NCBI RefSeq assembly: GCF_000186345.1
Contig: NC_014962.1
Coordinates: 3,314,450-3,378,449 of the forward strand
Source of the DNA: Isosphaera pallida ATCC 43644
Lineage (GTDB): Bacteria; Planctomycetota; Planctomycetia; Isosphaerales; Isosphaeraceae
Reading direction: 5' to 3'
DNA: 64,000 nt
Shown: one piece after another, positions 4,952-7,978 of the stretch
How positions within the stretch are numbered: the first letter of the stretch is position 1
Layout: each line of letters begins with the position of its first letter
Position numbers and translations under genes: made by a program
Notes under the pieces: model-generated
Databases searched by the model: none
The model's input: only the letters and a program-made list of their open reading frames with translations
Told to the model about the DNA's origin: nothing

Positions 4952-7900
4952 TTATTCGACCTGGGGATGAATGAGTTTGACGTGCGCCAATGAGTCAGGA
5001 TCGGCCTGAGGGTCGAGGAAGAGGCGGACCCGGTCGGGTTGGATGGTCTGGCGGGCGCGAATGGGGAAGGCGTCGCCGTCGTGGGCGGCGGGGAATCGAT
5101 CGACGATATCGCCGTCGTCCACGGTCATGGGCACGGCGCGGGGGTGGCTCACCAGCGCCGTGGGCGGCACCTTGGAACCGGCGGGGGTTGTGTGAAACAC
5201 CACCTTCCAGCCACCTGAGAGCCAGCCTCGGCGTAGTTGATAACGCAGTTCGACTTCTTGATAGGTTGGAGCAATTTCCACCCGCGAGGTGGGGTGTAAG
5301 CCGGGTGAGATTTGGCGGCGGCCGCCCACCTCGGCCACGGCGAAGGCCCGTACCCGCCAGGTGGACCCGGACGGGGTTTCGGGCAACGAAAGGATCACTC
5401 GTCCCTGACGATAATAATCTAACTCGTCGATCATGAGATGTTGGGCGTCGGGGTCGTCGGGCGAGGCCGGATCGGTTCCCAACCGCCAGACCAGCAGGGT
5501 TTTGGTCCCGGCCTGGCCCCAGTTCCAGCGCAGTTTGACCTTTCCAGAGCGTCCGATTCGATCAGCCCGCAGTTCGGTTGGATCAGCCAGGTAGGAGAGG
5601 ACGGCCTCGGCTCCCACCACGAACGCGCCGCCGTAGGCGATCAGCGCGGTGTAATGCCAAACCCCCAGCGAGGGGGGATCGGGGTCAAAGGTGTGATCGG
5701 CGGCCACCTGAGGGAGCCAAGTGCCCTCGATCGACTTGGCGACGGCGTGCGAAATCGGGTCGCCGGGGGCGCGTCCCAACGATTCCAGGGTTCGGATGAT
5801 CTGCACTTTTCCTTTGCGGGGACGGTCCCAAAAGAGGTGGACCCGTCCACGTTCGTCCCGTTCGATCCGCAGTTCGGCCACGGTTTCGACCAGGCCGCGT
5901 GGCCAAGCGGTGGTGAAGACTCCGCGTGAGGCTCGGAGCTTGTCGGGCCTTCTGGGGTTGCGATAGAGCGTGAAGAGGCCGTAGTGATAAACCACATCTT
6001 CACGCACGTTGGTGTCGATTGCCCGATCGCGGTGGGCTGGGATGGTGACGCCGTCGAAGGGGTCGCGTGGGTCGGCCTGCTCCTTGCGAACCAAGCGGAC
6101 GCCTTCGGCTCCGGGAGGCAGAATCCAACTGAGGTGGACCTGACGGGCGTAAGAGATAGCCTGGAAGTCGGTCGCGTCGGCCCAAATCGGTAGGGGACCA
6201 TAAAGCGCCCCGATGCGCGAGACCGCTTCGCCCCGGCAGGAGTGGGCGGCATAGCCGACGAGTTCGCCGGGAGGCGGGTCGGGGTCGATCGCTTCGGCCA
6301 GATCGGTCACGGTGATGATTACCCCGTCGTTGGCGTGGGCGGGGACGCCGTTGCGTTTACGAACGAGGCGGGTCTGAATAGGACCCAGGCCGTCGGGTTC
6401 GGGCGGCATCCAGGTCAGCCGCACCTGACCGTCGCGGTATTCCGCGACGAGGTCGCGGGGAGGCGGTGGCGGGCAACGTCGGATCCCCTCGCGGGCGTCG
6501 GGAAGATCAGCGCAACGCTCCAGCGCCGCGCGGAACAGCCGCAACGCCTCGTCGGGGTTGGTGTCCACCAACGAACGTCCCCGGGTGGCCAGGTCGGTCG
6601 CCCGTCGGATCGCCTCGTTGAGTTGGCTCATTTCCGCTTCGTATTCGGGGTCCAGGGGACTGACCAACCGCGACCAGCCCGCCATCGCCTCGCGGGCGGC
6701 GATCAGGCAGCGACGCGCCATCAGTTCGTAAACCAGTTCCTTGATTCGCTCGATTTCCTCCAGACGCTTGAGAACCTTGTGACGCGCGTTGATTCCTAGG
6801 TCATGGTAGGGATCGAGCCGCAGCAGTTCGTCCAAATGCGCCAGCGCGACGGCGTAATCGCGTTGTTTGTAGGCCGCGTCGGCCGCGTCGAATCGCGCTT
6901 GGATTTCGTTGATGCCAACGATTGCGCCATTGGTTGTGACAGAGCGGGGAAGCGGTGGCGGGGCAAGGGCGACCGGGTTGGCAAGTCGCTTGGACTCGCG
7001 TAGTGGGGCGGAACTTGGTGGAGAGAGGGGATTGTCGGTTGCCGAACCGGATGCAGCGTGGGGGACTACAATGGGTTCGATGGGCTCGGGGACGACCCCG
7101 CGGGTGCGACAGACCCGTTGGATGATCCGCTCGACTACGCGGGGCGGTCCGATGTCCCGGTGGCGTCCTTCTTCGAGCAGCACCTCGCGGGTGCGGGTGT
7201 CAAGAACGGTGAGTCCCTGGACGACGAATTCGACCAGGTCGCGGTAGGCTTCGGCAGCTTCGAGCAACAGAGTGCGGTCGTAACGTTGGCGGCTTTCGGG
7301 GCGACCGAGTTGGGATTGGGCGTGCGAGACGACCTCCAGCCAGGCGGTTTTTTCGGCGGTGACTTGACTTTTGCTCATCCACTTGCGCCGTTCGGCGTCG
7401 GCCCGTTCGGCGATCTCCTCGAAACTGGCCGAGCGGGGGAGTCCCAGGGCGTGGTAGAGGTCGGATTTTTTGAGATGTTCCAAAGCCAGGCGGATTTGGC
7501 GGCGGGTGGCCGGGTCGAGAACCTCGCCGGGCGCGGCGGTGGTGGGGTCGAAGTCCGCTTCGCCGCTCTCAGGGGGCGGGTCGGGTAGAAGCGGATGACG
7601 GTTGATGAGGCGATCGACTGTTTGGTTGTCCAGCCCAAACTCGACCGCCTTGTCGTGGAGCAGACGACGATCGGTGGAGGAGAGACCTCCCTTGGCCGCT
7701 TTGAGCGTGACCAGCTTCTCAAAGTCCTTGAGACGCCGATCACGCTCAGCGCGTTTGAAGGCCGCAAGTTCGGCGTCGTAAGAGGCGCGATCGGCTGGGC
7801 TGCCCAAAAGACATTTACGGATCGAGGGAATCTGATCCAAACAAGCTTGATAGGCGTGACGGGTTTTGGGGTTGCGGGTGCCCGAGGACCAGATCGCTTG

Positions 7901-7978
7901 ATGACGCTCCAGCGCTTGGCGGATTGTTTCCGGATCAGCTCCGGGTCCGATGCCGAGCATCGCGTAGTAATCGGTCAC
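4952..7978 (-). CDS. Large protein: duplicated J-like modules, TPR-like segment, Fn3-like repeats
   Basis: A 1008-residue cytoplasmic protein (no signal peptide or membrane segment). Residues 3-72 align by eye with a DnaJ J-domain (DYYAMLGIGPGADPETI ... ASYDAEL), but the HPD tripeptide is replaced (QAIWSSG). Residues 173-238 form a second J-like segment (DLYHALGLPRSASFEEI ... RQRYDRTL), also without HPD (RRKWMSK). Each is followed by a similar helical stretch (about 98-128 and 258-290). A Pro-rich linker (300-350), TPR-like helices (about 357-490) and, from about 503, several Trp/Arg-rich beta segments with Fn3-like spacing (RLTWMPPEPDG, HLSWILPPG, HLFWDRP, KLRWNWG) follow. It is the last gene of the def-fmt-ispH minus-strand series, 174 bp after ispH. 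Loss of HPD argues against Hsp70 stimulation. The role is unknown; a scaffold or protein-protein platform is inference. Confidence 0.85.
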   Translation of the reverse strand: MTDYYAMLGIGPGADPETIRQALERHQAIWSSGTRNPKTRHAYQACLDQIPSIRKCLLGSPADRASYDAELAAFKRAERDRRLKDFEKLVTLKAAKGGLSSTDRRLLHDKAVEFGLDNQTVDRLINRHPLLPDPPPESGEADFDPTTAAPGEVLDPATRRQIRLALEHLKKSDLYHALGLPRSASFEEIAERADAERRKWMSKSQVTAEKTAWLEVVSHAQSQLGRPESRQRYDRTLLLEAAEAYRDLVEFVVQGLTVLDTRTREVLLEEGRHRDIGPPRVVERIIQRVCRTRGVVPEPIEPIVVPHAASGSATDNPLSPPSSAPLRESKRLANPVALAPPPLPRSVTTNGAIVGINEIQARFDAADAAYKQRDYAVALAHLDELLRLDPYHDLGINARHKVLKRLEEIERIKELVYELMARRCLIAAREAMAGWSRLVSPLDPEYEAEMSQLNEAIRRATDLATRGRSLVDTNPDEALRLFRAALERCADLPDAREGIRRCPPPPPRDLVAEYRDGQVRLTWMPPEPDGLGPIQTRLVRKRNGVPAHANDGVIITVTDLAEAIDPDPPPGELVGYAAHSCRGEAVSRIGALYGPLPIWADATDFQAISYARQVHLSWILPPGAEGVRLVRKEQADPRDPFDGVTIPAHRDRAIDTNVREDVVYHYGLFTLYRNPRRPDKLRASRGVFTTAWPRGLVETVAELRIERDERGRVHLFWDRPRKGKVQIIRTLESLGRAPGDPISHAVAKSIEGTWLPQVAADHTFDPDPPSLGVWHYTALIAYGGAFVVGAEAVLSYLADPTELRADRIGRSGKVKLRWNWGQAGTKTLLVWRLGTDPASPDDPDAQHLMIDELDYYRQGRVILSLPETPSGSTWRVRAFAVAEVGGRRQISPGLHPTSRVEIAPTYQEVELRYQLRRGWLSGGWKVVFHTTPAGSKVPPTALVSHPRAVPMTVDDGDIVDRFPAAHDGDAFPIRARQTIQPDRVRLFLDPQADPDSLAHVKLIHPQVE

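Follow-up and report, generated by a model that had tools for sequence, protein, structure and literature searches.

A tandem HPD-less J-domain protein of Isosphaera pallida as the probable fibronectin type III scaffold of an HSP70-type GAP1-N2/DO-GTPase system

Introduction

Kaur et al. 2020 (PMC7159879) predict GAP1-N2/DO-GTPase systems that contain HSP70 and GrpE, together with a protein in which fibronectin type III (FNIII, or Fn3) repeats are fused to DnaJ or TPR. They assign this HSP70 theme chiefly to actinobacteria and firmicutes and offer a function in biological conflict or defense as a prediction; their passages on the FNIII component do not discuss the HPD motif. In the complex with DnaK, R167 is contacted by D35 of HPD and the linker by H33, and no system tested retained stimulation after replacement of H or D (PMC8215388). 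Both R167 and D393 of DnaK belong to a switch network (PMC7289447).

Isosphaera pallida IS1B is a filamentous, gliding planctomycete from hot springs, with a chromosome of 5,472,964 bp (PMC3072084). Here, we analyze a gene in a 64,000-nucleotide stretch of this chromosome (hereafter, the window) that probably encodes the FNIII/J scaffold of an HSP70-type GAP1-N2/DO-GTPase system, with a pair of J domains that lack HPD and an altered docking site on the Hsp70 side.

Domain architecture and predicted folds

The gene and the domains that it encodes are as follows (window coordinates):

4952..7978, (-) strand: whole gene, 1008-aa open reading frame with a GTG start and a strong codon-based coding score
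7754..7978, (-) strand: J-like domain 1 (J1), residues 1-75 (predicted model; VIA Z 9.5; profile alignment to the DnaJ family)
7589..7753, (-) strand: helical module 1 (H1), residues 76-130, with conserved AKGGL..D...L (model helices 61-96, 101-114 and 118-125; conserved columns)
7259..7516, (-) strand: J-like domain 2 (J2), residues 155-240, with WMSKSQVTAEKTAW in the place of the HPD loop (VIA Z 8.7; Pfam DnaJ match at 173-234, below cut-off)
7091..7258, (-) strand: helical module 2 (H2), residues 241-296 (predicted model; J1+H1 versus J2+H2, profile E 4.5e-9)
6914..7090, (-) strand: disordered linker, residues 297-355, at the site of the orthologues' double zinc ribbon (alignment; pLDDT <50 at 300-354)
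6470..6913, (-) strand: TPR-type helical region, residues 356-503 (Pfam TPR_2 at 362-391, E 2.6e-5, narrowly below cut-off; model helices 356-501)
4955..6469, (-) strand: about five Fn3-like beta sandwiches, residues 504-1008 (Foldseek and VIA; strands to 1003)

The Pfam DnaJ family matched two stretches, both below the cut-off of 27.8 bits (24 bits, E 4.3e-5), and a profile of 22 orthologues reached J-domain sequences in the PDB at E 1.8e-5. In an AlphaFold model of residues 1-300, built from the 22-sequence alignment (pLDDT 91.9), VIA-align recovered the J fold for residues 1-69 (6rzy; Z 9.5, rmsd 2.0, 68 aligned) as well as for residues 159-239 (4wb7; Z 8.7, rmsd 2.2, 69 aligned), and the titles of the entries listed were nearly all those of J-domain proteins. 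Foldseek assigned the J segments a probability of 1.00 at E-values of at least 0.1, an expected outcome for domains this short within a longer chain. On the predicted model, the two J-like segments that an initial annotation of the window had delimited at residues 3-72 and 173-238 are thus genuine. Its observation of a similar helical stretch behind each of them was likewise borne out: J1 and J2, each with its helices, align over 114 columns at a profile E of 4.5e-9, and the internal duplication of the J-hairpin modules is therefore genuine.

The full-length model (pLDDT 84.8) shows TPR-like helices at residues 356-501 and beta sandwiches at residues 508-1003, the order that had been read from the sequence. 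Residues 502-906 match Fn3 structures from fibronectin, tenascin and titin (Foldseek E 5e-13 to fibronectin fragments), and residues 505-693 align with Fn3 arrays at a VIA Z of 13.7; the array consists of four to five domains, of which four were matched to Fn3 structures and the last was assigned from its strand pattern. At 1008 aa, the label "giant" given to the protein was an overstatement. Nor do we share the view that Fn3 domains are unusual in a protein without a signal peptide: since FNIII fused to DnaJ or TPR is already a described component of such Hsp70 systems (PMC7159879), intracellular Fn3 is to be expected.

Replacement of the HPD loops

In J1, the loop WSSGTRNPK is found where the HPD loop is expected. 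When the 22-orthologue profile is compared with the PDB, "WssGtRNP" aligns with the canonical "WHP-DKNP", so that the Trp before the loop and the Asn-Pro after it are kept and HPD itself is gone. The corresponding loop of J2 reads WMxKxQVTAEKTAW, again without HPD. With R35, N36, P37, K38 and T207-L214 invariant in the 22 aligned sequences, the replacement loops are among the best-conserved parts of the protein. No HPD was found in either loop of the window protein, of the orthologues with intact N termini or of the operon homologues discussed below; an "HPD" string in L007 and L036 was rejected as the motif, as it sits at the turn between helices III and IV of J2, outside the loop. Because the Isosphaeraceae orthologues with an intact N terminus likewise lack HPD, its absence from the I. 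pallida protein does not reflect local decay.

Compared with a canonical Hsp40, the protein therefore has the J-domain fold, but not the HPD between helices II and III. Two outcomes had been named beforehand as speaking against the initial annotation, namely, the lack of any structural match to a J-domain and the presence of HPD in close orthologues; neither was found, and the judgment that this J-fold protein without HPD, scaffold-like in architecture, is unlikely to be a normal Hsp40 stands.

Orthologues and the missing zinc ribbon

Besides the I. pallida genome itself, 36 of the 44 other Isosphaeraceae genomes contain an orthologue, and none was found among 54 further genomes of the class from the same sample. 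The named sequence collection returned planctomycete records only, including Singulisphaera, Paludisphaera and Aquisphaera. Phylum-wide matches such as L057 were set aside, their similarity being limited to the Fn3 array or to the TPR and zinc-ribbon (ZnR) parts. In two of the orthologues, the N-terminal part is damaged: G011 has lost J1, and in G012 the reading frame is split.

According to the alignment, the second J-hairpin module of the orthologues is followed by a double zinc ribbon that the I. pallida copy lacks (window positions 6914-7090); it is the only aligned copy without one. Across other genomes, this loss could not simply be equated with the absence of a ZnR DO-GTPase, for which we found no gene in the I. 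pallida genome.

The adjacency of the window genes ispH, fmt, def and folC is not conserved among the orthologues, leaving the local context uninformative on function. Genes for GAF, FKBP, RidA and cytochrome c proteins near the orthologues differ from genome to genome. In several genomes, a single-domain GAF-like protein of ~150 aa is encoded directly upstream of the orthologue (L036:8873-9313, L046:9377-9829 and L047:415-903).

Operons of distant homologues

The operon evidence comes from three loci, all in planctomycetes outside the Isosphaeraceae and all connected to the window protein by distant homology. The homologue in G454 (E 1.3e-11 including the Fn3 part; 21-23% identity overall) has the same architecture (JJ-ZnR-TPR-Fn3), and both of its J-like loops are devoid of HPD. 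It is encoded in an operon (L126) with GrpE, Hsp70A (557 aa), Hsp70-vWA (715 aa), the JJ-ZnR-TPR-Fn3 protein itself, DO-GTPase2, GAP1-N2/M and a further DO-GTPase2. A class-wide search added two loci. The G552 locus (L176) encodes a DO-GTPase, GrpE, Hsp70A, Hsp70-vWA, a JJ-ZnR-TPR homologue with a DZR match, for which no Fn3 match was found, and GAP1; the G629 locus (L178) encodes GrpE, Hsp70A and a JJ-ZnR-TPR-Fn3 homologue. The neighborhood of DO-GTPase, GAP1, HSP70 and GrpE is thus present in L126 and L176, partial in L178 and absent around the window gene. As for the "lineage-specific scaffold" suggested initially, the scaffold-like architecture is retained, but a stand-alone invention is not, as homologues outside the Isosphaeraceae sit in Hsp70/GrpE/DO-GTPase/GAP1 operons.

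Near its Hsp70/GTPase operon, G454 encodes a second J-J-ZnR-TPR paralogue (L175:4551-6974; 807 aa), which is HPD-less, has no Fn3 and carries a likely membrane helix. At the canonical GAP1-N2 loci of other Isosphaeraceae (L110-L112, L116, L119, L120 and others), the third position was considered as a candidate and rejected, being occupied by an unrelated helical transmembrane (TM) protein of ~980 aa. Searches of plasmids with the G454 J-Fn3 protein and with GAP1 gave no matches; with Hsp70-vWA, most matches were Hsp70s of the DnaK type, and neither of the two loci inspected belonged to this system.

Partner genes in the Isosphaeraceae

In other Isosphaeraceae, the genes for Hsp70A, Hsp70-vWA and an FHA-TM protein are clustered; GrpE and vWA proteins are often encoded there too, and in some cases a ZnR DO-GTPase. 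The J-Fn3 gene lies apart from the Hsp70 genes and from any GTPase gene. I. pallida has orthologues of Hsp70A (C2:108851-110533; 42% over the full length), Hsp70-vWA (C2:1499645-1501711; 39% including vWA) and the FHA-TM operon partner (C2:3461215; 65%), all on the chromosome (C2). These genes are scattered, and the J-Fn3 gene is linked to none of them.

Among 45 Isosphaeraceae genomes, J-Fn3 and Hsp70-vWA (counted as present on strong matches, E below 1e-20) occur together in 35 and are both missing from 8, with J-Fn3 alone in 2 and Hsp70-vWA alone in none (Fisher p 2e-7, uncorrected for kinship). The two J-Fn3-only genomes are G011 and G012, those with the damaged J-Fn3 N termini. The co-absences span five genera, and several of the genomes concerned are incomplete. 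The link to Hsp70 has been retained rather than abandoned.

The I. pallida genome contains further loci of related composition. In a separate small cluster (L137:7615-10817; C2:4577614-4580816), a 102-aa J protein with HPPD for HPD is encoded together with a helical protein of 284 aa and an Hsp70 of 612 aa. A compact pair (L115:7438-9042; C2 ~2.693-2.695 Mb), matched in many other planctomycetes, combines a 264-aa DO-GTPase2-like protein with a 205-aa GAP1-N2-like protein that is too short for the usual middle and C-terminal domains of GAP1. Finally, nearly every one of the 45 Isosphaeraceae genomes searched has a match to a DO-GTPase2-like protein with a frame of ~770-900 aa (L117:5700-8009; C2 ~1.297 Mb), which suggests a core role.

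The Hsp70 docking site

By motif alignment, all 13 dedicated Hsp70A sequences carry A, Y or D at the position of DnaK R167, and 12 of the 13 carry N at that of linker residue D393, an equivalence that depends on an alignment that is gappy in the linker. In the same gappy region the hydrophobic linker appears altered; catalytic T199 is kept. With Hsp70A changed at R167 and D393, the receiving side is altered in one partner. The classical interface is not wholly lost, as Hsp70-vWA keeps R167 in 8 of 12 sequences and D393 in all 12. R167 is also present in DnaK and in a further Hsp70, of 612 aa, encoded by the same genome.

Discussion

The window protein resembles the FNIII component of Kaur et al. 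(PMC7159879) in that Fn3 repeats are fused to a J fold and TPR and in that its homologues adjoin GrpE, Hsp70s, DO-GTPase and GAP1. It departs from the same description in having two J-like domains, both HPD-less, along with helical hairpins and, in its relatives, a zinc ribbon, and in being encoded apart from the other components in the Isosphaeraceae. With canonical DnaJ/Hsp40 proteins it shares the J fold, the helix order and, in J1, the Trp before and the Asn-Pro after the loop; unlike them, it has HPD in neither copy, no recognized G/F region or CTD I/II, and an extra hairpin, TPR and Fn3. A J-like fold without a working HPD in an Hsp70 setting is also a feature of Pam16, the J-like partner of Pam18 in an Hsp70 motor. 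The likeness to Pam16 holds at the level of general description; here, by contrast, both HPD-less J copies are part of a single chain, and the operons revealed no active J of the Pam18 type.

In the account that we consider best supported, the window protein would act in the cytosol as a scaffold for an Hsp70/GTPase machine located close to the membrane. The two J folds and their helical hairpins would dock Hsp70A, Hsp70-vWA or both, the dedicated Hsp70s, at a membrane complex through a contact other than HPD-R167, and the TPR and Fn3 arms may collect clients or further components (GTPase/GAP1, FHA and vWA proteins). With HPD replaced and the arginine contacted by its aspartate missing from Hsp70A, the J modules would most likely tether and position Hsp70s, or regulate them via a different surface, rather than act as the classical trigger of ATP hydrolysis. 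Any role of the assembly in defense or conflict would follow from the predicted function of such systems. Speaking against this account are the separation of the J-Fn3 gene from Hsp70 and GTPase genes in the Isosphaeraceae, the missing ZnR DO-GTPase in I. pallida, the R167 retained in most Hsp70-vWA sequences, the low identity to the G454 homologue and the absence of an Fn3 match in the L176 homologue. A less probable reading is that, with HPD and its receptor site (R167 and D393) both replaced but the folds and the catalytic threonine kept, the Hsp70 machine is driven through a contact other than HPD and coupled to a GTPase.

Also less likely than the scaffold account is a rewired but active co-chaperone, in which the J modules stimulate the Hsp70A ATPase via a new contact (GTRNPK or QVTAEKTAW) that coevolved with the R167/D393 site. 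Both sides have indeed changed while the J fold, R35/N36/P37/K38 and T199 of Hsp70A were kept, and the GrpE encoded in the operons implies a nucleotide cycle; however, the uniform loss of stimulation upon H or D replacement (PMC8215388) weighs against it, and loop conservation may instead reflect a different contact. It is unlikely that the J folds are purely structural, serving a homodimer or a non-Hsp70 partner, with the Hsp70s as mere fellow components of a large complex. The missing HPD, the conservation of the helical region beyond the J folds and the duplicated hairpins, which could be oligomerization modules, would fit such a role, but J folds that occur in Hsp70/GrpE operons and are damaged where the Hsp70s are missing point to one related to Hsp70. 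Finally, although the window copy lost its zinc ribbons and the genes of the system are dispersed in I. pallida, an ordinary DnaJ-type protein that degenerated locally in Isosphaera is refuted for practical purposes by strongly conserved replacement loops and by the lack of HPD in any operon homologue or orthologue with an intact N terminus.

Through the probable assignment as an FNIII/J scaffold, a planctomycete protein that had been an orphan is connected with the DO-GTPase systems predicted for multicellular bacteria, for which we found no experimental tests in the literature; the organism in question is filamentous and in culture, and its genome is complete. J-domain proteins are customarily defined by HPD, which is regarded as indispensable; a conserved Hsp70/GrpE system with an HPD-less J pair, alongside an Hsp70A without the matching arginine, is a natural case for testing J-type regulation free of that contact.
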